This document shows, in pieces, positions 11,417 through 26,440 of a stretch of DNA of 26,440 nt. This DNA is from a virus. The first letter of the stretch is position 1; each line of letters opens with the position of its first letter. The translations under genes and the position numbers were made by a program. The notes below the pieces were generated by a model. It saw only the letters and a program-made list of their open reading frames with translations. It was not told the DNA's origin and made no database searches. The stretch lies in IMG/VR virus record IMGVR_UViG_3300030333_003053, positions 1 to 26,440 of that record, one strand, 5' to 3'.

Positions 11417-13150
11417 TTAGCCGTTAAGATCTTCAACAATGACGAGACCATACATATCAGGTCTAACCATCTTCTTGGCGTAGCGGGTCATGACCCCCTT
11501 ACGAGGTACGAAGTCCTCGACACCGAAAATGGTTGGAGTTACCTGGAGTGGTACATATGGTGCGTAAACGTATCCGCTCTCAAGGAACGATCCACCTTTA
11601 CGTCCGACTAGAACAACGTTACGTGGGAAGTAAGGATCCACATAAACATCGAACTTCTTGCTCAAAGATCCAACGTTAACTGCTCCGATAGATCCACGGT
11701 CATCGTCGTGAGAAACACTAGCGCGGAAACCGGCAGTGAACTCAAGGATGTTAGCAACTTCTGGGGAACAAACAACGAAGTTTGCACCGCCGCGAAGTGT
11801 CTTTCTGTGGATTTGTGCGGAAACATCATTGATGCTTTCTGCAAGTGTCTCGTACCATTCGGAAACAGTACCAGTGAAGTCAGCACCCATCAAGGATTCG
11901 TTGGAAAGATTTCCACCGATCTGGGCACCAGTGTCGCGAACCACGAATTTACCTGGGCGACGTGACCAGTATTGAGTAGAAGCTGCCGCACCTTTGATAA
12001 GGTCCTCAAGGATCTCACGATCAATCTCAAGAGCAACTTGCTCAGAGAGAATGCTTGTAAGTTCAACTTCTGCATCAAGGTTGTGGTATGCATTAAGGTC
12101 TTGCCCCAATTCTGGTGTCCACTTTGCCTTGAGCTTTTTCGTCATAGCAGTTACGCTAACCGAATCAACTTTGATGTCGATCTCTGGGATCTGATCAGTG
12201 TTCTCAAGTCCCCAAGTAGGATCACCAACAACTGCACCAATTCCGCGACCACCAGCTTCAGTAACATTATTGAAATTGTCTCTGATTGGGAAGTTAAGCA
12301 AGAATGCTGCTGTTTGTTCCAAGTCAACACGCAAGTCATCATTAACTGCATTGCTGCTAGCTTGGAATACCAATTGAAGCATGAAGTTAGCATTGGTTAC
12401 ATCGTCTCCGCCATTAGAAGCAGAGTGAACTTGTGTAAGTCTTCTCACCATAGTACCGTTTGCCAAAGAACCAGTAGGTGCAATAGCAACAAGGTTGTTG
12501 AGATCCAACTGAGCCAAGTTAGCAGAACCAGTGATTGCAACAACAACACCAGCAGAACCAGACATATCTGGGTCGAATTGGATTGCTCTGTTGAAGTCAT
12601 TATCATCAGCAGAACCAGTTCCCGCAATGATATTTGCGTCAACAGGTGTAATGCATTCACCCGAGGAAGCAGTTGGGCTTGAGTAGCCGTTGTTCAAGCT
12701 GTATGGACCAGCCTCAAGGTTGGCACCAGTGAGGTTAACACCGCCTGTCAACTGCTGTCCCACAACACCACCGCCGTAGAGTGAATCTCCACCAGTGTAT
12801 CCGAGCTTAGTATCAAGCACGGTAAAGTCGAGGAAGAAGATGAGTCCCGATGGGAGGCTCATTGGCTGAACGCTGACGAGATCATTAGCGATCAAGCTGC
12901 CGAATACACGGCGCACGATTGGGAATGCAACTGCTGCAAAACCCTCGACATCTCCACCAGCCATGGTGGATGCCTCACGCAACAACTCTTTAGCTTGGTT
13001 TTCAAGCAAACGAGCCATGGCGTCTTTCGAACGGTCGTTATCCAATCCTTCAAGAAGTCCGGTCTTTTCCCACTTATTAAGTAGAGCAGCACCTTCCTTC
13101 TGGAGATCACGATTAACGATACCTTCGGTTAATTTATCTAAAACTGACAT
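11417..13150 (-). CDS. 23: Major capsid protein (gp23-like)
   Basis: The 577-residue precursor forms the icosahedral shell. It carries the gp23 signatures DAMARLLENQAKELLREAST (about 43-62) and FPIVRRVFGSLIANDLVSVQ followed by PMSLPSGLIFFLDF, then the C-terminal block FEVYVDPY-like KKFDVYVDPYFPRNVVLVGRK and YAPYVPLQVTPTIF. The phage protease cuts after L/I-x-E; LRE at residues 57-59 is a plausible site for removing the scaffold-binding N-terminus, near the T4 position (E65). The start has AAGGAG about 10 nt upstream. The scaffold gene lies just upstream and a strong terminator follows, so 22 and 23 form one unit. T4 gp23 has 521 residues; the extra length is in a Gly/Asn/Ser-rich region around residues 120-215. 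No separate gp24 vertex gene is visible in this window. Confidence 0.96.
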   Translation of the reverse strand: MSVLDKLTEGIVNRDLQKEGAALLNKWEKTGLLEGLDNDRSKDAMARLLENQAKELLREASTMAGGDVEGFAAVAFPIVRRVFGSLIANDLVSVQPMSLPSGLIFFLDFTVLDTKLGYTGGDSLYGGGVVGQQLTGGVNLTGANLEAGPYSLNNGYSSPTASSGECITPVDANIIAGTGSADDNDFNRAIQFDPDMSGSAGVVVAITGSANLAQLDLNNLVAIAPTGSLANGTMVRRLTQVHSASNGGDDVTNANFMLQLVFQASSNAVNDDLRVDLEQTAAFLLNFPIRDNFNNVTEAGGRGIGAVVGDPTWGLENTDQIPEIDIKVDSVSVTAMTKKLKAKWTPELGQDLNAYHNLDAEVELTSILSEQVALEIDREILEDLIKGAAASTQYWSRRPGKFVVRDTGAQIGGNLSNESLMGADFTGTVSEWYETLAESINDVSAQIHRKTLRGGANFVVCSPEVANILEFTAGFRASVSHDDDRGSIGAVNVGSLSKKFDVYVDPYFPRNVVLVGRKGGSFLESGYVYAPYVPLQVTPTIFGVEDFVPRKGVMTRYAKKMVRPDMYGLVIVEDLNG

Positions 13151-13177: not shown

Positions 13178-14236
13178 TTAATTTAAACCTGCCAATCTAC
13201 GCATTCTTTCCATGCGAGGATCAACTGATTTAGCCTCTTTAGTTTGTGGTAATAAAGTAGATTTCCTACTAACCGCCTCGCTTAGTGTTTTTGGGTTCTC
13301 TTTCTGAGTACCACTCACCGTGCTTTGAAGGGTTTCAAAGATTACCTTTGCTTCTTCGACAGACTTAGCACTTGAAATAGCTTCGACAATTTTATTCTTT
13401 TGTCGCCCATTCAAAGAGTCACTAGTCAATACTTCGTTTGTGTAAAGTAGCTTTGCGTTCTGAACGGAGGTTTCGTTCAAAGCGTCTTTTAACTTGAGGA
13501 CAACGCCCTCAATGTGTTTGGTGTTAGACTGAAGGTTTTGGAGTTTCTCTTGAAGTTCTTTCTTTTCTGCTTCAAGGGTCGCGACATTCTCCTGCAAGCC
13601 TGTCAGCTTCTTCATGGCAGCAATTTCAGCAGGGATTACGTCTTCGCCTTCCTCTTCTTTGTCTGCATGGGCTGCAAGTGCGTCATACTCATCATACCCT
13701 CTATCAACTTCGGATCGAGGCATTCCCAACCAGCCTGATTTTTCTGGACTGAAATCTAGGGTGAGCTTTTCTGCAATGTCTGCTAGGGTCTCTTCGTCTA
13801 AATTAATTTCTTCGTCTTCAAATAAGTTAGCCAAATCGATCTCGGTGTTTTCCTGAAGGTCATTGTCTTCTTCGTATTCCTCTTCAGCGTCTTCGATTTC
13901 GTCTTCTGCAAATTCGTGGCGATCTACCATCTCTTCTGCGTCTGCTTCTTCCTCGGAAGCCATCTCTTGGTCGATCATTTGCTCAAGCTCTTGAAAATCA
14001 AGCTCTACCACATCGGAAGCCGCAATGGGAGCGTCATTGATGTCTGATGCAGCCATGGGAATATTATCCATCGCCACACCATCTTCAGAGATAATCTCTT
14101 CTTGGTTGAGCATCGTATCCACCGCTTCTCTTATCTCTTGGGAATATTTCTCCACGATGGCGGATTCTGCGGTTTTAATAGCTGCTTCTTTTAATGCTTT
14201 AGCATCCACAATTGCTTGATCTAACATTGATGACAT
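13178..14236 (-). CDS. 22: Prohead core scaffolding protein (gp22-like)
   Basis: The 352-residue protein forms the internal scaffold that is digested after prohead assembly. I chose the ATG at 14236 (MSSMLDQAIVDAKAL) because AGGAG lies 8 nt upstream; the open frame extends to 14314 but runs through the leader. After a helical N-terminus comes a very acidic middle (about residues 70-190, many runs of E and D), then a coiled coil (about 210-260, LQENVATLEAEKKELQEKLQ) and the conserved C-terminal block of this family: AKLLYTNEVLTSDSLNGRQK, KIVEAISSAKSVEEAKVIFE and LSEAVSRKS, ending RMRRLAGLN. Encoded immediately before the capsid gene, as in T4. It is longer than T4 gp22 (269) because of the acidic middle. 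Confidence 0.92.
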   Translation of the reverse strand: MSSMLDQAIVDAKALKEAAIKTAESAIVEKYSQEIREAVDTMLNQEEIISEDGVAMDNIPMAASDINDAPIAASDVVELDFQELEQMIDQEMASEEEADAEEMVDRHEFAEDEIEDAEEEYEEDNDLQENTEIDLANLFEDEEINLDEETLADIAEKLTLDFSPEKSGWLGMPRSEVDRGYDEYDALAAHADKEEEGEDVIPAEIAAMKKLTGLQENVATLEAEKKELQEKLQNLQSNTKHIEGVVLKLKDALNETSVQNAKLLYTNEVLTSDSLNGRQKNKIVEAISSAKSVEEAKVIFETLQSTVSGTQKENPKTLSEAVSRKSTLLPQTKEAKSVDPRMERMRRLAGLN

Positions 14237-14281
14237 TATATAATCTCCTAATATTTGGTCGCAAATAGACGTTTTGCGTCT

Positions 14282-14293
14282 TAGTAAATAGTT
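14282..14293 (-). promoter_or_regulatory. Candidate late promoter motif upstream of scaffold and capsid genes
   Basis: The coding strand reads AACTATTTACTA, 45 nt before the scaffold ATG, identical to the tube-gene motif. T4 also has late promoters near genes 22 and 23. The leader just downstream can form a small hairpin (AGACG, 5-nt loop, CGTCT). The promoter role is inferred from recurrence and location. Confidence 0.55.
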
Positions 14294-14331
14294 CTTTAAA
14301 AAGCAAAAATACAAAAAAATAACAACTTAGT

Positions 14332-14643: not shown

Positions 14644-17235
14644 TTACTTCTTGAGGATTGCTTTCAATTCTTCAATCTGAACTTGTTGTGCTTTAACAGC
14701 CTCAACGAGAACCGAAGTAAGTCTTGAATAGTCAACTCCCTGCACTCCATCTTCTGCAACGTGTACAGCTTTTGGAAGAACAGCTTGGACTTCTTGAGCG
14801 ATGAAACCGAAGTCACGGTCGCCCGAATCTTTCCAAGTAAACTCAACACCGTTCAAGGACATAACAGTATCAAGCGCAGTGTTGCTCATGGAAGCAACGT
14901 CGCTCTTGAGGCTTTCGTCCGAATAGGTTACGAATGCAGCCGCTCTCATCTTGTTAGCGTTGTCAGATCCGTTTGCTACGTCAACAGCGTACTCAGAAGA
15001 AGCATCACCACCGAGAGTAACGATTGTTGCTCCAGAGCTATTCTGGATGAACAAAGTGTTCTCGCTGGCATCATACATCATCTTCTCGTTAGCAGCACCA
15101 CCGTGAACAGAAAGGTCAGCACCTTCTCCGTCAGATCCAGCAGTCATAGCGCCGTTGAATTGGAGGGCTCCAGCAGAAGAAACGGACAAGCCGGATCCAC
15201 CATCAGAGTATCCACCACCAATGCTAACACCACCATCAACAGTCAAGTCACCGTTCATCTGGAGGTTACCAGCAGAGCTAACAGTAACACCAGTAGAACC
15301 GTATCCGCCTGCAACAGTCATTGAGTTAACAACAGCAGTGTTTCCACTTCCGTCGAATGTGATGGAGGAGTTAGATCCGCCATCAACAATGCTGTTTCCG
15401 CCAGCGATAATGTGCGAAGTAGCTTGCATGGTTGTGAACTTACCAGTAGAGTGGTCGTTCGCACCGATAGCTGTTCCGTCAATTGCGCCACTGTTGACAT
15501 CAACGTTGGTCAAAGCAACATTGTTCAAGTCCTGTGCGGCGCTCCAAGTCAATCCACCAGAGATGGTTGCAGCGGAGATGTCACCAGAATCAATGTTAAC
15601 GTTAGTCATTGCTTGGCTAGCGCAGTTCAAAGCAGCACCAAGTGCATCAGCACGAAGGTCATCAATGTAAGCAACGCCGTCAAGGTAAAGATCTTTAAAT
15701 TCTTTCGAAGAAGAACCAAGATCAACCGCATTATCATCAAATGGTAGGAAGTTACCAGCAGCAGTCACGGTAGAAGCGAATGTTGCAGCACCAGAACCAG
15801 ATACAGTTGTGAACTTAGCAGTAGACTGTGCAGCGGCACCAATGGCTGTTCCATCAATTGCACCAGAGTTGATGTCAACGTTTGTGATAGCCTGGTTGTT
15901 TGCGTCAAGTGCAGCGCCCAACTGATCAGCCTGGAGGCTGTCAATGTAAGCAACACCGTCAAGGTAAAGATCCTTGAACTCAGCACCAGAAGCACCAAGA
16001 TCAACATCGTTATCACTTTCCGGACGAAGAACGCCGTCTGCGAGGCGCATTTCAGTTGTTGCACCGATGTTGAAGTCAAGAGCACTGTTTGCGTGGTCCC
16101 AAAGAAGGGATGCGTGTCCAGTTTCATCAGCTCCACCACCAATCTTAAGTCCACCGCCGCTAGCATTAGCAGAGGAAGCAGAAACAGCAGAAATGATTAA
16201 CTTGTCGTCAATCTCAAGAATTGACTCTGTTTGAGCAATACTGTTAATGGTAACTACGTCGAGGTTTGTGATTCTTGCGTGTGAAGCAGTAAGTTGCTGT
16301 CCAACATTAACGTGTCCAGTAAAAGTTACTGTGTCATCGGTTTGAGTACCAAAAGTAACGTTGCCACCCAAGTCAACATTGAAGTCCAACTTAGTAGCAG
16401 CGATTGCAGCACCAGCAGCAACAGAAGCATTGACAACAGCGTCAGCAGCCAACTCGTCAGCACCAACAGCGTCATCGGCAAGCATAGCGTTGGTGATACC
16501 CTGTGCTTTCACGCGGAGAGCATCAGAGTTAAGCTCGATTGAACTATCATCAACACCAACAGCGAGAACACCAGAAGCAGCAGCAAGACCGTTACCGGCA
16601 ATGTTAGATACAATGTCAGACCACTGCTCTTTTTTGGCTTCACCAGAGGCTCCGCCGTCAAGGAAAAGAACATAGTCGTCCGCAACAGCCATAGCAGCTT
16701 CGGAAACAAGAGCAGGTGCGTCTTTTGCAAGACTGTCAACGCCGTACTTCTTGAGTGTTCCACCATCACTGATCAAGAGTTCATCAGCAGCAGCAAGTGA
16801 TCCTTGTGCCAATTCTCCTCCGCCAATGCCAGAGATACAATTGTCGTTGAGCATTGAGCCTTCAACAGCATTAGCTTGAATGGTAGCAGCACCACCAGCA
16901 GCAACTGCGATATCACCAGAAACATTTCCGAAGATTGCATCTTCGAGGTTAGAGAAAGTAATTTTCTTCTCAGTTCCACCGTCTGAGAACAAGAAGTAAT
17001 CCCCTTGAGCAACACCGGTTCCACCGAGAGCGCTGAAGCTATCAATGTTAACCGACAAGTTTGCAATGTCTAGAGCACTACCACCTTCGTTTTGAAGGTA
17101 AAGACTTGCAGAACCGACAGCACCAGAAGCGAAGAGATAAACTCCTCCCGCTGGGGCTTCGGCTGGATCTCCAGAAGCCGAGACATTCTGAAGAGAAACG
17201 TATTTTCCGTATTCGGATACAGAAACATTAGCCAT
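14644..17235 (-). CDS. Large fibre protein with C-terminal S74 intramolecular chaperone
   Basis: The 863-residue protein starts at MANVSVSEYGKYVSLQNVSA. The ATG at 17235 has GGGAGGA 7 nt upstream, which excludes the start five codons earlier. The N-terminus would attach to the virion. The middle is repetitive Gly/Ala/Ser/Asp-rich beta material with two copies of a 93-residue unit (core EFKDLYLDGVAYID and TNVDINSGAIDGTAIG). The last ~95 residues are a peptidase S74 (endosialidase-type) chaperone: SDESLKSDV, FTWKDSGDRDFGFIAQEVQ and a final VEAVKAQQVQIEELKAILKK coiled coil. S74 domains help trimerise fibres and then usually cleave themselves off; the Ser and Lys of SDESLK are candidates for the dyad. 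It probably binds host receptors, or forms a head or neck fibre given its place beside head genes. Confidence 0.88.
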   Translation of the reverse strand: MANVSVSEYGKYVSLQNVSASGDPAEAPAGGVYLFASGAVGSASLYLQNEGGSALDIANLSVNIDSFSALGGTGVAQGDYFLFSDGGTEKKITFSNLEDAIFGNVSGDIAVAAGGAATIQANAVEGSMLNDNCISGIGGGELAQGSLAAADELLISDGGTLKKYGVDSLAKDAPALVSEAAMAVADDYVLFLDGGASGEAKKEQWSDIVSNIAGNGLAAASGVLAVGVDDSSIELNSDALRVKAQGITNAMLADDAVGADELAADAVVNASVAAGAAIAATKLDFNVDLGGNVTFGTQTDDTVTFTGHVNVGQQLTASHARITNLDVVTINSIAQTESILEIDDKLIISAVSASSANASGGGLKIGGGADETGHASLLWDHANSALDFNIGATTEMRLADGVLRPESDNDVDLGASGAEFKDLYLDGVAYIDSLQADQLGAALDANNQAITNVDINSGAIDGTAIGAAAQSTAKFTTVSGSGAATFASTVTAAGNFLPFDDNAVDLGSSSKEFKDLYLDGVAYIDDLRADALGAALNCASQAMTNVNIDSGDISAATISGGLTWSAAQDLNNVALTNVDVNSGAIDGTAIGANDHSTGKFTTMQATSHIIAGGNSIVDGGSNSSITFDGSGNTAVVNSMTVAGGYGSTGVTVSSAGNLQMNGDLTVDGGVSIGGGYSDGGSGLSVSSAGALQFNGAMTAGSDGEGADLSVHGGAANEKMMYDASENTLFIQNSSGATIVTLGGDASSEYAVDVANGSDNANKMRAAAFVTYSDESLKSDVASMSNTALDTVMSLNGVEFTWKDSGDRDFGFIAQEVQAVLPKAVHVAEDGVQGVDYSRLTSVLVEAVKAQQVQIEELKAILKK
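15582..16014 (-). repeat. Two tandem copies of a 279-bp unit inside the fibre gene
   Basis: Nearly the same sequence recurs with an exact 279-bp offset (for example CACCAGA at 15582 and 15861, CAAGGTAAAGATC at 15681 and 15960), a 93-residue unit. The shared protein core is VDLG-(S/A)S-x-x-EFKDLYLDGVAYID followed by a D-L-x-AD-x-LGAAL segment. A third partial copy of the DxNSGAIDGTAIG part lies near 15471-15515. These are fibre shaft repeats that could recombine. Confidence 0.8.
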
Positions 17236-17280
17236 AATAAATCCTCCCATAGATTTAATAGATTAAATTTTAAATTAAAG

Positions 17281-17426: not shown

Positions 17427-17930
17427 TTAGTGTTGACCGTCCGACCAAGTTGAAACGCTAATTCCGGATCCGGTTAGAGCATACATATCAGCTTTGTCAA
17501 TACCTGTCAGTTCTGCATAAACACCAAAAGACCCGGCGTTGACGGCTCCAGCGGCAGGTCCCGCGATAAGACCCCCAAGAGGGGCAGCAGTGATGTAAAG
17601 TTCCTTACATTTTATGTGAGCTTCAAAAGAGCCCGTCGAGGGAGAGTTTGTGGCAAGAGCGGGTGGAATAACATAATAGTGAATACCCGTAGCCACAGCC
17701 GGTGTGGTCGCTTTTGGAACGAAATACACAGCTAGTTCACTAGATGTGCAGTAATTTATAACTCTAACGTATTTAGTAACAGTTGGGAACTGAACTTTGT
17801 ATTCGTTTCTTGCTCCAAATGCAGCAGATCCCTCTGCTTCAACAACAGATCCGGTTAAATAAGGCTTTCCGGAAACTTGATATGCTGCTGAGTTTCCTAA
17901 ACCGCTTGCCCATGGTGAATAAGTTGACAT
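17427..17930 (-). CDS. Probable virion structural protein, unknown function
   Basis: A 167-residue, Gly/Ala/Ser/Thr-rich, beta-looking protein (MSTYSPWASGLGNSAAYQVS). Strands such as YKVQFPTVTKYVRVINY and ELYITAAPLGG, together with low charge, resemble capsid decoration or fibre-associated proteins. There is no signal peptide or membrane segment. The ATG has a GGAGA site about 8 nt upstream, which lies in the 11-nt gap after bS21, so it is probably co-transcribed with bS21. The next gene is the large fibre, so a partner of that fibre or a head decoration protein are both reasonable guesses. I do not recognise a family. Confidence 0.72.
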   Translation of the reverse strand: MSTYSPWASGLGNSAAYQVSGKPYLTGSVVEAEGSAAFGARNEYKVQFPTVTKYVRVINYCTSSELAVYFVPKATTPAVATGIHYYVIPPALATNSPSTGSFEAHIKCKELYITAAPLGGLIAGPAAGAVNAGSFGVYAELTGIDKADMYALTGSGISVSTWSDGQH

Positions 17931-17941
17931 TTTATTTTCTC

Positions 17942-18178
17942 CTAGTCTTTATATTTAGCGTCATATTCTCTTTGAAGCCTTTTTAATGTTCTTTGTCTGT
18001 CCATTTTTTTGCGTCGACGCTTTGCCGTGGGTTTCTCAAAGAACATGTGTTTCTCGCGCCACTCATCAAGGACGCCTTCTTTTTTGACTTTCTTGGTGAA
18101 CCTCTTAATCATTCTTTCGGGAGATTCATTTTTTCTTGGTGTAACTTCTACGTTAACTGGTTTAGCTCTCTTTCTCAT
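17942..18178 (-). CDS. rpsU: Phage-encoded 30S ribosomal protein bS21
   Basis: The 78-residue, strongly basic protein matches bacterial bS21 along most of its length: ESPERMIKRFTKKVKKEGVL, then a DEWREKHMFFEKPTAKRRRK block that corresponds to the conserved RRREFYEKPTxxRKR segment of E. coli S21 (71 residues). The family signature helix is present with Met and Thr at two usually conserved positions. An N-terminal extension of about 12 residues precedes the core. bS21 binds the 30S platform near the anti-Shine-Dalgarno end of 16S rRNA and helps initiation. The gene starts 8 nt past the stop of the upstream gene, with AGGA 5 nt before the ATG. bS21 genes are known in other phages; finding it inside the head cluster suggests late expression and possible exchange into host ribosomes, which is inference. 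Confidence 0.93.
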   Translation of the reverse strand: MRKRAKPVNVEVTPRKNESPERMIKRFTKKVKKEGVLDEWREKHMFFEKPTAKRRRKKMDRQRTLKRLQREYDAKYKD

Positions 18179-18185
18179 TTCATTC

Positions 18186-18602
18186 CTATTTTATTAATTG
18201 CTTCCAAACATCAGTAGATCCAAGTAAGCTTGAAATATCTACCCCGGAATCACCTGGGTCGACGCCCTCAAGAACCGAAGACGGTGCCCCTGGGGGTCCT
18301 GAATTTCCGGCTTTCCTCATGGGGGTTGTTCCTTCAAAAACATCAACGCCTCCGTAGGAAGAGTTCCCTATGGCATCAAGCATCTTTCTCTTTGTTTCGT
18401 CTAGCTTCTGTCGTTGTTTCTCGGCTGCCTCTTGGCTAGCCTGCTTTGCAAATGACTGTTGTGGGTCGGTCGCCGGTTGTTCTGTCTGGATTGTGCCCAC
18501 TGCCTTTACTACTTCGGAAATAACATCTTTAAGAACGCCCTCTTCTATAAGAACCTCCTTTACGCTTTCCTTAATAAGATCTTTAAAGTCACTCTTTTTC
18601 AT
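18186..18602 (-). CDS. Small probable prohead-core or head protein, unknown
   Basis: A 138-residue protein (MKKSDFKDLIKESVKEVLIE). The N-terminal ~35 residues form a charged amphipathic helix, followed by a Gln/Glu/Lys-rich helical stretch (about 55-75, EAAEKQRQKLDETKRKML), then a flexible Gly/Pro/Ser tail (GNSGPPGAPSS). This composition resembles small internal prohead core proteins such as T4 gp67/gp68, which lie near gene 21, but there is no clear sequence match. It begins 1 nt after the protease stop, with AAAGGA overlapping that stop, so the two are translationally coupled. It is directly followed by bS21. Confidence 0.75.
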   Translation of the reverse strand: MKKSDFKDLIKESVKEVLIEEGVLKDVISEVVKAVGTIQTEQPATDPQQSFAKQASQEAAEKQRQKLDETKRKMLDAIGNSSYGGVDVFEGTTPMRKAGNSGPPGAPSSVLEGVDPGDSGVDISSLLGSTDVWKQLIK

Positions 18603-18603
18603 T

Positions 18604-19200
18604 TTAATCCTTTACAATATCGTTTAAAAGTCTGTTTATCTTGTCAGCCTTTGTCCACACATTCGGCTCTTTATTTTCCCTCATCATAAAAGCACCAGTT
18701 GTGGAAGGCTCCGAAACCATATCAAAACAGATCAACTGAAAGTCATCATTAACTCTTGCAGCGCCGTTGCTTTCGTCAACGGTGCCCAAGCCACGGGAAG
18801 AGATACCAACTTGGCATCCACCCTCAACAAGTGCTCGAAGTGTTTTTCCTGCTGGTGTGTCTAGGACTTTAATTTTTCCCATAACATCCTTGCCCTCAAA
18901 CCAAATGTCTGTAACAATATGGGATGCGTTGGCGAGGTTAACGATGGAAGACTCTGGATGATCTAATTCCCCCAGTGCTCTCTTTTCTTTTACGAGCTTC
19001 TTATAGTTATCCACCTCTCGCTCCAAAACACGCGCAGGATAAACTCTGCCGTTTCCGTTCTGCGCTTCTGCTCTCTGCATCACACCAGAAAGAATAAGAC
19101 CGCCGTTGGCGATATATCGCTTTTCGTCTTCGGTGAGAAGATCTTGGCACACACCACCTTCGCATAGTTGATAAAATTCTGTTAGTAACATTTTTGACAT
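18604..19200 (-). CDS. 21: Prohead core maturation protease (gp21-like)
   Basis: The 198-residue serine protease digests the scaffold and trims the capsid protein during head maturation. It has the T4 gp21-type (S80) layout: NGNGRVYPARVLEREV near residues 48-63, the catalytic His in GELDHPESS (His81), and the catalytic Ser in VGISSRG (Ser134 or Ser135). The length is close to T4 gp21 (212). I chose the ATG at 19200 (MSKMLLTEFYQLCEGG), which has AAAGGA about 9 nt upstream. The frame is open further upstream to 19254, but that stretch (Arg-rich) passes through a hairpin and precedes the ribosome-binding site. The gene sits between the membrane protein and a small core-like protein. An odd 17-codon ORF with a strong ribosome-binding site lies just upstream. 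Confidence 0.92.
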   Translation of the reverse strand: MSKMLLTEFYQLCEGGVCQDLLTEDEKRYIANGGLILSGVMQRAEAQNGNGRVYPARVLEREVDNYKKLVKEKRALGELDHPESSIVNLANASHIVTDIWFEGKDVMGKIKVLDTPAGKTLRALVEGGCQVGISSRGLGTVDESNGAARVNDDFQLICFDMVSEPSTTGAFMMRENKEPNVWTKADKINRLLNDIVKD

Positions 19201-19215
19201 AATAACAATCCTTTT

Positions 19216-19230
19216 ACGGGCGCGACCCGT
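19216..19230 (-). other. Small hairpin adjoining the ribosome-binding site of the protease gene
   Basis: ACGGG (19216-19220) and CCCGT (19226-19230) can form a 5-bp stem with a 5-nt loop. On the minus strand it ends directly at the AAAAGGA ribosome-binding site of the protease gene. It could modulate protease translation, but the stem is short. Confidence 0.4.
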
Positions 19231-19235
19231 GCGAG

Positions 19236-19289
19236 CTAAGAGCCACGGCAGCATCTTCTAACTGGTTGTAACATCCATTTTGCTGTCAT
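19236..19289 (-). CDS. 17-codon mini-ORF with a strong ribosome-binding site, upstream of the protease
   Basis: ATG at 19289 is preceded by GGAGG with exactly 5 nt spacing, one of the best ribosome-binding sites in the window, located directly after the TAA of the membrane-protein gene. The frame encodes MTAKWMLQPVRRCCRGS and stops with TAG at 19236. It could be a translated leader peptide controlling the protease gene, a tiny functional peptide, or the remnant of a longer N-terminus lost by frameshift. The protease frame is reached by a -1 (or +2) shift, but no clear slippery heptamer is seen. The signal is real at sequence level; the function is unknown. Confidence 0.4.
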   Translation of the reverse strand: MTAKWMLQPVRRCCRGS

Positions 19290-20163: not shown

Positions 20164-20994
20164 TTAGTTATTTATTTCCCTAGCCAATTCTTGGATCTTT
20201 AAGATCTTCTTTAGGTCCTTGTCCTCTAGAGGCTTTTGGCTGAAAGCTTCTAAAAGTCCGAGTACTTGGTCTGCCTTTTCGGTCATTTCGCCGTCTTCCA
20301 AAAATTCTTTGCTTGCCTTGGCAGTCGCAACTTCTTCCTTTAATCTTCCAATCTCTGTATTTAAGTAGATCTGGAACTCAAGGTCATTACCGATGCCGGA
20401 AGCGATAAATCTGGAAAGTAACGTCTTCTGTTCTTCGAGGAGACCGCTATATTCGTTGTTAAATCTTTCGACAAAAGATTTAAACACAAGGCTGTCGATG
20501 TGCTTTAGTTCTTTTTGGCTATCCTCTTCTTTAGCCTCCACCATTAGAATTAGGGCTTCCTCTTCTAAAAGAACCCTCTCTTTGGCTGATAGGTCGAGAT
20601 TGTTAAATACTTGATGAAGTGTAGCCAAGTTTTTGTAATTTGGGACAAAAATGTTAAATACATCTTTGGAAAGCTCCTTGTTGATCTTGGAGATCATTTG
20701 GCTTTGCTCTGTGAAAATCTGCTTCTTATTGAGAACAGAGTACTCGATTTTAGATTCAGACAAGATTTTTTCTGCGATGTTTGTTTTCGCATCCTTGGTT
20801 TCCAAAATGTTTTTGTAGATCCGCACTTCGCGTCCCATGAGGGTATTGGCATTAAAATGCTCTTTGACAATATTCAAGATAGTTTCTCTCCTGCCTTGAT
20901 CCCTATCAACAGTAGCTTTTGTCAATTCTCTGACGAGCGCTTCGTAAAGGAAAATAGTGTTCCTTTTTTTGTTGTGCTTAATTTTCGCTGACAT
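20164..20994 (-). CDS. Helical protein of the portal-protease region, unknown function
   Basis: A 276-residue, highly charged, mostly helical protein (MSAKIKHNKKRNTIFLYEAL), with Lys/Glu-rich coiled-coil-like stretches around residues 130-165 and 180-250. No catalytic motif or membrane segment is visible. It overlaps the 3' end of the portal gene by 17 nt in another frame, indicating translational coupling to the portal. Helical charged proteins in this place in T4-like phages include prohead core proteins (gp67, gp68), so an internal core or scaffold-associated role is plausible, though at 276 residues it is larger than those. I do not recognise a specific family. Confidence 0.77.
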   Translation of the reverse strand: MSAKIKHNKKRNTIFLYEALVRELTKATVDRDQGRRETILNIVKEHFNANTLMGREVRIYKNILETKDAKTNIAEKILSESKIEYSVLNKKQIFTEQSQMISKINKELSKDVFNIFVPNYKNLATLHQVFNNLDLSAKERVLLEEEALILMVEAKEEDSQKELKHIDSLVFKSFVERFNNEYSGLLEEQKTLLSRFIASGIGNDLEFQIYLNTEIGRLKEEVATAKASKEFLEDGEMTEKADQVLGLLEAFSQKPLEDKDLKKILKIQELAREINN

Positions 20995-22930
20995 CTTTCT
21001 TGGTCTCCAATTCCATTATTAAACTTTTTACTTCGTTATTAATTTTAAAGATTTTTCTTTCTTCTTCTCTATAATTAGAATCCTGTTCCTCTTTAATCCC
21101 TCTTGCCAAGCGTGAAAGGTCATGATAGCCCTTGTTGATGTTTCTGCTAGCACTACTTGCAAGATTGCTTCCCGCATCGGCAGACATCTGTCTTTGCTGT
21201 GCTCTTTTTCCAGAAAGGTCATTTCGTGGCTTATACCACTTTCCCTTGGACTTGGCAGTCGTTGTCATCTTTTCGCCGCCAACTTTCTTTTCAACTTTGT
21301 CATCCCGGTTAGCTGGTGGTACTGCCAAAAGGTTCGTGTCTGGTTCTTCTGCTGCGGGCTCTTCCGGTAAGCCTTCCCCCTCTTCGCCTTCGTCACCGAG
21401 AAGGTCTTCTCCTCCACCGCCTTCGTCGCCCAAGAGATCGTCGCCGCCAAGACCACCGCCGCCGCCCATGGCATCCACTGCTTCGGCTGATTGATCTAGT
21501 TCTGCTGTAATTATTCTATCGTGGAACATTTCTCTTTGGTTACGCAAAAACTCCTCTTCTGAAATTGCGAAGAGATTTTCTGCAATCCAGCGCTTGGAGA
21601 AGAATCCTTCTGCTGCTGCGGTGGCAACATCGAATTTGGTTCTCCACTGTTCCAAGTCTTGGAGTTCAGCAATCTTAGATGGATTGTTCATTGAAAGTTT
21701 AAAAGAAATAAGATCGTTCTCTCTGTATCCCAAAGTGAAAAGGTGGATAATGGCGATCTTTTCTAGTTCTGTAATAACAACTCTTTGCAATCTCTGGATT
21801 GTTCTCGCAAAACGAATGTCTTTTTGAGCCAAAGTTGCCTTGTCCTCATCAGCACCTTCGCCACGGAAAAGGTAAGATTGGGGAACTTTAAGTGCCGAGA
21901 ATAGTTTATCTTTTAGGTATTTAACATCATCAATGTCGCCCGTGTAAGTTCCTCCGGGCAAGCTTTCAACCCTGGTTGATTGTCCGCCACGAGTAGGAAT
22001 AAAGTAATCCTCATCAACAGACATGGGATTATAGCGAAGATCAACGCGACCAGTATCTGCATCAACAACTTGGTTACGCTTCATAGAAGTCATAACCTTC
22101 TGCATGTATTGCTCAACATCGTTGGGAGCCATATTTCCGACATCAACATAGAATACACGTCGCTCAGGTGACCGAACAATGCGATAAGCCATCATCGCGT
22201 CCTCTAAAAGGGTTAGCTGTCTGAATATCCTTCTGGAAGGGTCTAGGACGGAGGTACCGTAAGGGGCGTATTTATCATTTCCCAAAATACGAAAGTGTGC
22301 AATTTGCCAGTTTTCAAAAGTAAGACCTGCTGAATTCCACTGGTATTGGATGTAATTGGGATTTGTTTTGTCCTGCCCTTCGAGCCTTTCTACCTCGCGA
22401 AGCGGCAGACTGATTACGTTTTCAACCCCCGTTTTGTCATCGATTTCCAAATATAGAATGTAATCTCCATATTTACACAAGGTCCTGCACCAGTTAAAAA
22501 TATTATGCTCAATATTCAAAACATTGTGAAAGAGGGAATTCAAAATAATTTTAATCTCCTCGTTCTGACAATGGATGTTAAGTAGTGGTTTCATGTGGGA
22601 AGAGGTGGTCATTTCATCTGCATAGATGTCCAAGGCGGAAGCAATAATTGGCTCATACTCCATCTGATCAAAGTCAACGTACCTTTGGAGTCTGGACTGG
22701 TTTAGGTAAACGTTTGCTGCTAAATCAGAAAATGGATTATAATCTAGTCTTTTAAATTGCTTCCCCGAGGCAGACTGGAACTTAGATGCATATTTGTCCA
22801 GCTCCTGTCTTCTGTTTTGATTTACGTTTTGTGCTCTGTAGTTTACGATTGGACCAGAGAAAAGCCTGGTTAATCTTTTAAAGAGAGGGGAGGCGGGATT
22901 TCTTACATTCTTTCCATTTTTGGGAGCCAT
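20978..22930 (-). CDS. 20: Portal protein (gp20-like)
   Basis: The 650-residue protein forms the dodecameric vertex ring for DNA entry and for neck attachment. T4 gp20-type features are the NRRQELDKYASKFQ region, YVDFDQMEYEPIIASALDIY (about 85-105), CKYGDYILYLEID (about 150), YGTSVLDPSRRIFRQLTLLE (about 224), RSPERRVFYVDVGNM and LKDKLFSALKVPQSYLFRG (about 335). T4 gp20 is 524 residues; the excess is a C-terminal tail from about residue 485, beginning with a repetitive Gly/Asp/Glu-rich stretch (GDDLLGDEGGGGEDLLGDEG) and ending in basic helical sequence. The start has AAAGGA about 9 nt upstream. It follows the terminase with only a 5-nt gap. Confidence 0.95.
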   Translation of the reverse strand: MAPKNGKNVRNPASPLFKRLTRLFSGPIVNYRAQNVNQNRRQELDKYASKFQSASGKQFKRLDYNPFSDLAANVYLNQSRLQRYVDFDQMEYEPIIASALDIYADEMTTSSHMKPLLNIHCQNEEIKIILNSLFHNVLNIEHNIFNWCRTLCKYGDYILYLEIDDKTGVENVISLPLREVERLEGQDKTNPNYIQYQWNSAGLTFENWQIAHFRILGNDKYAPYGTSVLDPSRRIFRQLTLLEDAMMAYRIVRSPERRVFYVDVGNMAPNDVEQYMQKVMTSMKRNQVVDADTGRVDLRYNPMSVDEDYFIPTRGGQSTRVESLPGGTYTGDIDDVKYLKDKLFSALKVPQSYLFRGEGADEDKATLAQKDIRFARTIQRLQRVVITELEKIAIIHLFTLGYRENDLISFKLSMNNPSKIAELQDLEQWRTKFDVATAAAEGFFSKRWIAENLFAISEEEFLRNQREMFHDRIITAELDQSAEAVDAMGGGGGLGGDDLLGDEGGGGEDLLGDEGEEGEGLPEEPAAEEPDTNLLAVPPANRDDKVEKKVGGEKMTTTAKSKGKWYKPRNDLSGKRAQQRQMSADAGSNLASSASRNINKGYHDLSRLARGIKEEQDSNYREEERKIFKINNEVKSLIMELETKKDVSEN

Positions 22931-22935
22931 TGTTT

Positions 22936-24510
22936 TTATCCTTTAAGAATCCAATTAAATTGCTGTTGTTCTTTTATCTTAGCACTTTTTGCAACAGGTT
23001 TATAGCCCTGTTGACCCGGAATTGTCGTATTTAATTCACTTTTTGTCCTAGTCATTGTGCTGAGAAATGTTTTTGTATATTCTATGTCTCTCTGATTAGT
23101 TTCAAGAGCCGTATCTCTAACCCAACAACCAATAGCAAAAGCCATAACCAAGTCATCATTATACATACGCATGGCTTGGGGGCGACCGTTTTGCCAAACA
23201 AATGTTTCTAACTCATTAAATAGTCTAGCCGAATATATTGTAACTAGTTTATTTCTAATGAATTCTTCCATTTTTGCCACAATCAAAGGTCTGGTCTTGG
23301 AAGTGGTGGAGAAACCTGCGACGGCGTTTGAAGCAGTTTCACCTATGTATTGTTCGACGTATTCGTGGGTGGACTTGATCGAATAGTAAAGGTTGGGATA
23401 AGCCAAGTCTCTTAGTTTGTCGAGCACGGCAAAGCCTACAGAGTTATTTTCAATAACCATTAGGCATTCGCCAAACTCTTTACCAACCTCGTTTAACATG
23501 TTGGCGAAAAGATCTGGTGTGATCTTTGACTTATACTCTCCGATGATTTCCATTGTTTCTAGCTTAAAGATGTGAAAAACAGAACTATCCTTATCATCTC
23601 CTCGTGCTACGTCGGCTACCAAAAGATAAGTTGACCCTGGCTGGTATTCTTCCCATATCCAAAAGTTCCTATCAAACCCTGTTTTGTATTTTGGGTCCTG
23701 CAATCCTTGTTTAATTGTGGTCATGTCGTCAGGGTGAATGACGGTTTCTCCCGACATGTTGAAGTTGCACTCATATTCTTGAGCCACTTGGCGCTGGGAC
23801 ATGTTTTTGGTTTCTTCTTCAAACCATTCATCATCTCGATCAGGGTGAACGTGCCATGGAAGCACCGTTGGAAAAAAGTCGTTAATGCCTGCTTCTGCGT
23901 CTGTATAAGTTTGGTGAAACCAGTTTCCTACACCATTTGGGGTAGATAAAGCAATGCAGCGCCCGCCTGTTGATAGAGTAGGATAGAGACCAGTCCACAG
24001 TTCATCAAGCCCTTCTACGTGCGCTGCCTCATCAATAACAAGAAGAGACAATGCTTCCGAACGACCCGCATCGCCAGAGGTTGTTGATGCTTTGATCTGG
24101 GAGCCGTTGTTCAACTCAAACGATGTTCTGTTGTCGATGGAAATATTTGCTATCTGCATCCATTCTGGTAAGTTTTTAATGATTGCTTTGACTTTCTTGA
24201 CCAAGTTTGCTGCTGTCTGGAACTTAGTTGCCATGACAAGAATGTTCTTGTCGCGGTGGAAAAGCATCATCCAAGACACATAGGCAGCAGTAATGGTAGA
24301 AATACCCAATTGGCGACCCTTTAGTATGACATTGAAACGATGGTCGTTAAAATCTTTTAACAGTTGGGTCTGGAAGTCGTAGGTCTTGAAGGGAACAAGA
24401 CCTTTGATTGGGTGGGAGATCCTAGCGTAACTATTAATAAAGAAGTCAGGGTCTTTTCCGCACTTCACTATTTCAGCGAGGATCTCTTTTTTTGACAGTT
24501 TATAAGCCAT
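22936..24510 (-). CDS. 17: Large terminase subunit (gp17-like)
   Basis: The 524-residue motor ATPase-nuclease packages DNA through the portal. The ATPase domain has a variant Walker A, GRQLGIST (65-72, preceded by Lys64), Walker B LLVIDE (156-161) and a coupling-type motif LSTPNG (188-193). The nuclease domain shows the acidic residues of the RNase H-like fold: LLVADVARGD (Asp300), MVIENNS (Glu354) and YNDDLVMAF (Asp452/453). The P-loop lacks the usual Lys before the final Ser/Thr (Ile70 instead), a pattern seen in some terminases where an earlier basic residue takes over. It is shorter than T4 gp17 (610). The ribosome-binding site is weak (GTAGAA) and the upstream gene ends 2 nt away, so coupling is likely. 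No recognisable small terminase lies upstream. Confidence 0.96.
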   Translation of the reverse strand: MAYKLSKKEILAEIVKCGKDPDFFINSYARISHPIKGLVPFKTYDFQTQLLKDFNDHRFNVILKGRQLGISTITAAYVSWMMLFHRDKNILVMATKFQTAANLVKKVKAIIKNLPEWMQIANISIDNRTSFELNNGSQIKASTTSGDAGRSEALSLLVIDEAAHVEGLDELWTGLYPTLSTGGRCIALSTPNGVGNWFHQTYTDAEAGINDFFPTVLPWHVHPDRDDEWFEEETKNMSQRQVAQEYECNFNMSGETVIHPDDMTTIKQGLQDPKYKTGFDRNFWIWEEYQPGSTYLLVADVARGDDKDSSVFHIFKLETMEIIGEYKSKITPDLFANMLNEVGKEFGECLMVIENNSVGFAVLDKLRDLAYPNLYYSIKSTHEYVEQYIGETASNAVAGFSTTSKTRPLIVAKMEEFIRNKLVTIYSARLFNELETFVWQNGRPQAMRMYNDDLVMAFAIGCWVRDTALETNQRDIEYTKTFLSTMTRTKSELNTTIPGQQGYKPVAKSAKIKEQQQFNWILKG

Positions 24511-25440: not shown

Positions 25441-26355
25441 TTATACATCTATTTTGTCTAATTTTTCAGCTAAAAGATCTATTTTCTTTTGCTGCTCTTT
25501 GACAGCCTCAACCAAAAATGAAATAATCCTAGTATAGTCCATTGTGTTGGCGTATTGTGGGTCCTGATTCCATTCAACAATCTCAGGTATCACTTTCCCA
25601 ACATCCTCTGCGATGAAGCCAAAATCTTTCTTTCCGGTGTCCTTCCAGCTATACGAAACGCCCTGCAATTTACTGATTGTACTAACAGCAGCCTCAAGTG
25701 GCTGAACGTCCTTCTTGTATCTAATCGAGGAATACGATACAAAAGCATTTGCCTTTACTTTTCCAGAATCATCGCTTGCGTCTGGCAAAGTGATTGCGTG
25801 GGTAGCAGAACAGTCTCCAATAGCCAAATACTTGTCAACATGAACACAAGATCCGGACAAGACCAAGCCTCGTTGTACTGACCCCGAAACGATCAACGCC
25901 CCATTGCCGCCGTCTTCGTAGTATATTTTCGCTTCGTTATTTGGTCCAAAGTTGAAAGCAGCCGTGTCACCCGTGGATACAAACTGTAGCTCACCGCCGA
26001 TCTTTAGAGGAGAGGCACCCTCTAGGGTTCCTGCTATTTGAATTGTTGAGCCCGACAATACGATGCCATGATCCGATCCCGAAATGACTAAAAAATCATC
26101 CTGATTCTCGTTATATTCTATGTGGGCATCTGAGTTGGTGCCGAAAATCATCTTTACATCGTCGGCAATCTTCATGTCGGTCCCATCGAAAGTAAAAGTA
26201 GGTATATTTCCGAAGGACCCATTGTTGTTATATTGGACATGCGTATTGGATCCGGCTGGGCTAGTGGTTCCTCCCCCGCCGTCACCAGTCGTAATCGCAG
26301 ACTGCTGCTTAATCAAAGCCATCAATTTGCTGTGGCTATACTTACCTATCGCCAT
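25441..26355 (-). CDS. Fibre-like protein with C-terminal S74 chaperone
   Basis: The 304-residue product starts MAIGKYSHSKLMALIKQQ. I prefer the ATG at 26355 (GGAG about 10 nt upstream) over a TTG nine codons earlier. After a short N-terminal helix comes GSNTHVQYNNNGSFG, a motif common in phage fibres, then beta repeats of the VISGS/VLSGS type (for example DHGIVLSGSTIQIAG and QRGLVLSGSCVHVDK). The last ~100 residues are a peptidase S74 chaperone: SSIRYKKDV, YSWKDTGKKDFGFIAEDVG, and a terminal coiled coil (EAVKEQQKKIDLLAEKLDK). It likely forms a trimeric fibre or tip. The domain is homologous to that of the large fibre but clearly diverged. The start overlaps the end of the upstream gene by 14 nt. 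Confidence 0.88.
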   Translation of the reverse strand: MAIGKYSHSKLMALIKQQSAITTGDGGGGTTSPAGSNTHVQYNNNGSFGNIPTFTFDGTDMKIADDVKMIFGTNSDAHIEYNENQDDFLVISGSDHGIVLSGSTIQIAGTLEGASPLKIGGELQFVSTGDTAAFNFGPNNEAKIYYEDGGNGALIVSGSVQRGLVLSGSCVHVDKYLAIGDCSATHAITLPDASDDSGKVKANAFVSYSSIRYKKDVQPLEAAVSTISKLQGVSYSWKDTGKKDFGFIAEDVGKVIPEIVEWNQDPQYANTMDYTRIISFLVEAVKEQQKKIDLLAEKLDKIDV

Positions 26356-26440
26356 TTGATTTGATCTCCACGGCGACTGCAAAGACTGCTATGGAAAGAA
26401 CTATACCACCAAGCACACCACCGGCAAGCCACCAATGGCT
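26342..26440 (-). CDS. C-terminal end of a small membrane protein (partial, cut by window end)
   Basis: An open frame enters from the window edge and ends with TAA at 26342. The visible 32 residues contain a single strong hydrophobic segment (WLAGGVLGGIVLSIAVFAVA) followed by a short polar tail (VEIKSNGDR). The last 14 nt overlap the start of the fibre gene in another frame, and its 3' end supplies that gene's ribosome-binding site. A one-membrane-segment tail next to fibre genes could belong to a holin-like, spanin-like or anchoring protein, but only the end is visible, so no function is assigned. Confidence 0.55.
   Translation of the reverse strand, partial: SHWWLAGGVLGGIVLSIAVFAVAVEIKSNGDR

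Follow-up and report, generated by a model that had tools for sequence, protein, structure and literature searches.

The window analysed here, an IMG/VR virus record 26,440 bases long and probably a fragment of a longer virus genome, encodes a true ribosomal protein bS21 among its head-assembly genes (Table 1). The gene is a core gene of the group of T4-like phages to which the window belongs, is under strong purifying selection and belongs to a separate viral lineage. On balance, we think it probable that the product is a vertically inherited, late-expressed paralogue that joins the host 30S subunit and there sustains or tunes Shine-Dalgarno (SD)-dependent initiation on phage messages.

Table 1. 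Features of the window, and tmRNA genes of its long relatives
Feature	Position	Strand	Evidence or remark
Major capsid protein Gp23	11417..13150	-	PF07068, 246 bits
Probable scaffold protein upstream of capsid gene	13178..14314	-	Position and conservation in relatives; no family match; start probably at an internal MSSM
g17427, downstream neighbour, fast-evolving	17427..17930	-	34-80% identity in close relatives; no family match
Phage bS21 (ribosomal protein S21 paralogue)	17942..18178	-	PF01165, TIGR00030, AlphaFold2 two-helix model
Junction g18186/bS21	18179..18190	-	TAG stop overlaps AGGA Shine-Dalgarno site; gap 7 nt
g18186, probable prohead core protein	18186..18602	-	Adjoins bS21 in 127/127 loci; protease-site-like motif in 82% of homologues
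Prohead protease (T4 gp21-like)	18604..19254	-	PF03420 Peptidase_S77, 117.6 bits; PHROG 207; real start probably within this ORF
Portal protein (gp20-like)	20978..22930	-	PHROG 213, E = 8e-75
Large terminase (gp17-like)	22936..24510	-	43% identity to terminases of Flavobacterium phage immuto and Microcystis phage Mel-JY01
tmRNA genes in window-clade contigs of at least 100 kb	L175:8839-9249; also L362-L368 (G002-G007, G011)		

An earlier note, made from the letters of the DNA, had recognized a bS21 homologue and proposed a search against bS21 profiles; this gave significant matches above the curated cut-offs. The 78-residue product, which starts at an ATG, scores 54.9 bits (E = 7e-15; cut-off 27) against PF01165 (Ribosomal_S21) and 44.1 bits (cut-off 28.95) against the NCBIfam equivalog TIGR00030, and PHROG 21469, 'ribosomal protein S21', matches the ORF with an E value of 6e-10. 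An AlphaFold2 model (pLDDT 82.7, pTM 0.40) has the two-helix fold, with helices at residues 20-45 and 50-76. Five of the six Foldseek matches to this model are bS21-type ribosomal chains and the sixth is mitochondrial; all are weak (E of at least 0.14), as expected for two helices.

The core protein, protease, portal, terminase, capsid and sheath genes lie with bS21 on one strand, the sheath and tube genes beyond the head genes being probable assignments by position and homology. The protease is two genes from bS21, and the capsid, portal and terminase genes are in the same block; a core structural gene is found within ten genes of bS21 in 388 of 900 bS21-encoding genomes (PMC9723584). As the earlier note had stated, bS21 is on its neighbours' strand and has an AGGA site. 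This site, 5 nt ahead of the ATG, is partly supplied by the TAG stop of g18186, which suggests that the two genes are translationally coupled. The 7-nt gap leaves bS21 no room for a promoter of its own between the genes, so that expression jointly with the head genes is the natural reading. The proposed position inside a late structural operon is likewise upheld by the T4-type genes around it; late timing in the window phage, which we infer from this arrangement, has a precedent in the bS21 of Bacteroidetes phages, transcribed late according to metatranscriptomics (PMC9723584). The T4 late promoter motif TATAAATA, allowing at most one mismatch, occurs 42 times in the window compared with 24 by chance; it was dropped as evidence of late expression, none of the occurrences being just upstream of bS21.

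The flanking assignments made earlier stood in part. The core protein on one side is g18186, a probable prohead core protein that found no family match in PHROG or Pfam profile searches, whereas the 'probable virion protein' on the other side, g17427, is not upheld, no family match having been found in PHROG, Pfam or NCBIfam profile searches. Conserved motifs of the g18186 family are KE..EVL.EEG.LS and GVDLFEGT.P...dP.D.GVDIS. Between g17427 and the scaffold gene lies a tail-fibre-like gene (14644-17250) that is highly variable among relatives; its product and a second tail-fibre-like protein (25441-26382) have a common C-terminal intramolecular chaperone region, Peptidase_S74, assigned by profile match in the former and by homology in the latter.

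A protein scan with the window bS21 revealed relatives on 57 virus contigs, in the same operon slot. To avoid selecting on bS21, 80 loci were sampled by prohead protease alone: bS21 is present in 70 of these, and the remaining ten are cut off ahead of the scaffold and capsid genes. In every one of the 127 window-clade loci that have bS21, the gene immediately upstream is a g18186 homologue (median gap 7 nt). Some of these loci have an insertion of as much as 3.2 kb that separates the protease gene from g18186; since the adjacency to bS21 is kept despite such insertions, the conserved unit is g18186-bS21, and the two proteins may be functionally linked. Close relatives are 76-91% identical in bS21, compared with 49-75% in g18186 and 34-80% in g17427, and the median dN/dS of bS21 is 0.057, with synonymous sites saturated in one third of pairs. 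Distances between bS21 proteins are correlated with those between proteases (r = 0.68; none of 2000 permutations was that high), as vertical descent predicts. The bS21 genes in records labelled as phages of Listeria, Klebsiella, Staphylococcus, Enterococcus or Acinetobacter look like cellular DNA or prophage flanks and were excluded as phage bS21; in OR847736, OR849273, OR850381, OR846595, MK416018 and other phage-named records, the rpsU looks cellular and probably stems from host DNA or the flanks of a prophage.

Comparison of 78 window-clade proteins with 60 bacterial sequences, mostly from Pseudomonadota, defines what the viral protein has kept and what it has changed. Like cellular bS21 (rpsU), the window protein exceeds the equivalog cut-off and has two helices and the RF and KP motifs, and the family-marking residues R/K26 and F27 (basic-basic-Phe) and K49 and P50 (Lys-Pro) are kept in the window clade. 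It departs from cellular bS21 at position 23, which is Met (Met/Leu in the clade) in place of the Ala of 95% of the bacterial sequences, and at position 28, which is Thr (Thr/Ile/Leu in the clade) where all 60 bacterial sequences have Lys/Arg. In addition, position 32 has changed to Lys in the clade, Gly35 is lost in half of it and the window subclade has a one-residue insert between the helices. Judging from their spacing, positions 23, 24, 27, 28 and 31 would share one face of helix 1, where the changes would widen a hydrophobic stripe. The two altered signature positions of the earlier note, Met23 and Thr28, are therefore real but clade-wide, not private to this phage. As to the functional divergence that they were thought to mark, the altered helix-1 positions are conserved across the clade, and a consequence for function is possible. 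The N-terminal extension relative to bacterial bS21 is about eight residues by alignment (Met1 of F. johnsoniae bS21 corresponds to window residue 9), not the 12 first counted, and is shorter in more distant clade members; such extensions of phage bS21 were already known (PMC7162821).

The bS21 tree comes from a short alignment of 76 columns, with bacteria mainly from Pseudomonadota plus a few named others, and its deep forks are not settled. The window clade forms one side of a branch (93/85), and its nearest viral neighbour is the Mel-JY01 group (80/76); the bS21 of HTVC008M falls with alphaproteobacterial-type sequences (97/91), apart from the window clade. The tree had been proposed as a means of finding the host lineage, but the viral clade parts from the sampled bacteria and points to no host. 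Among 84,980 species genomes the pattern [RK]RF[TI]KKVK turns up 170 times, and just one of these places encodes a relative, on a phage contig in a MAG; no cellular bS21 with this clade motif was found among the genomes scanned. A genome scan with the viral alignment was rejected as a route to the host, its one relative being on a phage contig binned in an Acidiferrobacteraceae MAG. This 24-kb contig, PBOB01000007.1 (L059), belongs to the window group of phages and carries protease, capsid and bS21 genes; the MAG's own rpsU lies elsewhere. A test for a cyanobacterial host, which is not decisive, found psbA/psbD (Photo_RC) absent from ten relatives and from Mel-JY01.

Tyr54 of F. johnsoniae bS21 helps to block the anti-SD sequence. 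The equivalent of this residue (chain 7jil, confirmed letter for letter) is Arg63 in the window, and the clade has Arg (86%), Ala (8%), Lys (5%) or Gln (1%), with no instance in the window clade of the aromatic residue of the Bacteroidetes-type, anti-SD-occluding bS21. The genes of the window in turn use SD sites: their mean SD energy is -5.9 kcal/mol versus a background of -2.8, and sites of -4.4 kcal/mol or stronger precede 14 of 19 genes in the window and eight of 13 in Mel-JY01, which is SD-using like the window, whereas none of 12 head genes of immuto has an SD site. Given this difference, the window phage appears unlikely to infect SD-blind Bacteroidia (for their SD blindness, see PMC9976891). 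The suggestion that bS21 biases initiation towards late mRNAs through their strong SD sites was not supported, SD strength not being late-specific: in six long relatives, with gene starts taken from a simple script, late and other genes showed no significant difference (p = 0.08 to 0.995). Strong SD sites occur genome-wide, and SD strength is not supported as a mark of late genes.

The closest cultured counterpart in gene order is Mel-JY01 (PP395634; bS21 WWT39311), a Microcystis phage in which protease, one gene, bS21, scaffold and capsid follow one another in the same head-operon slot and on the same strand. An rpsU gene in this slot is also present in ten of 12 relatives, the other two being cut short. 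Its bS21, of the viral group nearest to the window clade, is 38% identical to that of the window over 50 residues; it retains the Lys where the window has Thr28, and the gene upstream of it has no detectable relation to g18186. The terminase of immuto is as close to that of the window as is that of Mel-JY01, but immuto and 80 related loci (L138, L197-L276) have no bS21 near the protease, despite the same head-gene order. The bS21 of freshwater Bacteroidetes jumbo phages also sits in the structural-gene region, among terminase, portal, protease and capsid genes (Chen et al. 2022, PMC9723584), and its divergence is likewise concentrated in the N-terminal helix. Unlike the window gene, however, it is on the strand opposite the structural genes, and it is aromatic at the Tyr54 position, where the window, with its SD-using genes, has Arg (PMC9723584). 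The Pelagibacter phage HTVC008M (AGE60443) is another T4-like phage with bS21, but there the gene is part of the replication module, close to the genes for an Hsp20 and the sliding clamp, and its product lacks the window-clade signature; the window does not group with this type. Pelagimyophages have bS21 as a core gene that is not part of a cluster (PMC7029224). A phage bS21 that is encoded near the protease and capsid and expressed late has been published before (PMC9723584, PMC6375957).

All seven window-clade contigs of at least 100 kb carry a complete one-piece tmRNA, an RNA that rescues ribosomes (106-131 bits; cut-off 47), with the tags ANDNVEFDYALAA, ANDNVEVDYALAA, ANNNNYFEQRLAA, ANNNNHYDEVRLAA, ANDADYGLALAA, ANNADYDLALAA and ANNDVELDNFAQAA; the gene is known from these long relatives, not from the 26,440-base window. 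In the five mapped contigs (G007 treated as circular), it shares the strand of the late genes and precedes the terminase gene by roughly 70-88 kb. A search of the tmRNA-bearing relatives found no SmpB gene. Mel-JY01, immuto and HTVC008M, in contrast to the long relatives, have no tmRNA. The frequency of tmRNA is 2.3% of phage genomes (PMC9004378), and bS21 and tmRNA are each found among huge phages (PMC7162821); we found no description of the pairing as a group trait in the literature searched. A tentative and rather doubtful proposal is that the virus-specific bS21, with its changed helix 1, and the phage tmRNA make up a ribosome-takeover kit in this uncultured T4-like group, in which bS21 would steer or sustain initiation and the tmRNA would clear stalled ribosomes in the late burst.

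Cellular bS21 takes its place on the 30S platform, next to the anti-SD tail, as a late step of assembly, and phage versions can replace it. For these reasons, the phage copy would most likely displace or supplement host bS21 on the platform. Co-transcription and translational coupling with the prohead core gene, both probable, would make bS21 abundant when the virion proteins are made, and once incorporated into host ribosomes it may keep or tune SD-dependent initiation on phage messages in the late burst; any effect on message choice in the window phage is inferred. Loss of Lys/Arg28, kept in all 60 bacterial sequences, means that binding may differ. This missing helix-1 Lys/Arg, a clade-wide trait, would also suit a protein that shuts off the host by making its ribosomes poor at host messages or inactive, the benefit then being inhibition. 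The bS21 of HTVC008M, the phage version whose incorporation was tested, enters E. coli 70S ribosomes, which then have only about 5% translation activity in vitro (PMC6375957), a result that fits inhibition equally well and counts against the account we favour. However, the figure comes from a mismatched host, and the window gene is among the late genes, when the phage's need for translation peaks; we regard shut-off as unlikely. The retained ribosomal-family residues and the strong purifying selection could reflect simple supply, with phage bS21 covering a shortage of the host protein after host gene shutdown and message preference unchanged, but clade-fixed changes at bacterially conserved positions are unexpected of a plain substitute, and this explanation too seems improbable. 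Least likely of all, and in our view very unlikely, is recruitment of the small basic protein to the head, either to bind DNA or act as an internal head protein, or to travel in the capsid and act when the next infection starts. Encapsidation was raised as a possibility by Chen et al. (PMC9723584), and the constant adjacency to g18186 favours such a role. Against it, a protease-site-like motif, [LIV]xE|[GAS], stands near the N-terminus of 82% of g18186 homologues, whereas [LI]xE|[GAS] is found in just 2% of the bS21 proteins, which speaks against a processed or packaged bS21, and bS21 conservation tracks ribosomal-family residues.

What appears to be new is the obligate pairing of g18186 with bS21 in this uncultured group of T4-like phages, together with a clade-fixed change in helix 1 and a companion tmRNA. 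To our knowledge, bS21 is the commonest phage-carried ribosomal protein. In the window group it is a late core gene, not an occasional acquisition, in phages that rely on SD sites, and has a clade-fixed change at a position invariant in the 60 bacterial sequences; this offers natural comparisons of phage with cellular bS21 and of SD-using with SD-blind hosts. The cultured Mel-JY01, with the same gene order, opens late expression, packaging and ribosome incorporation to direct testing.
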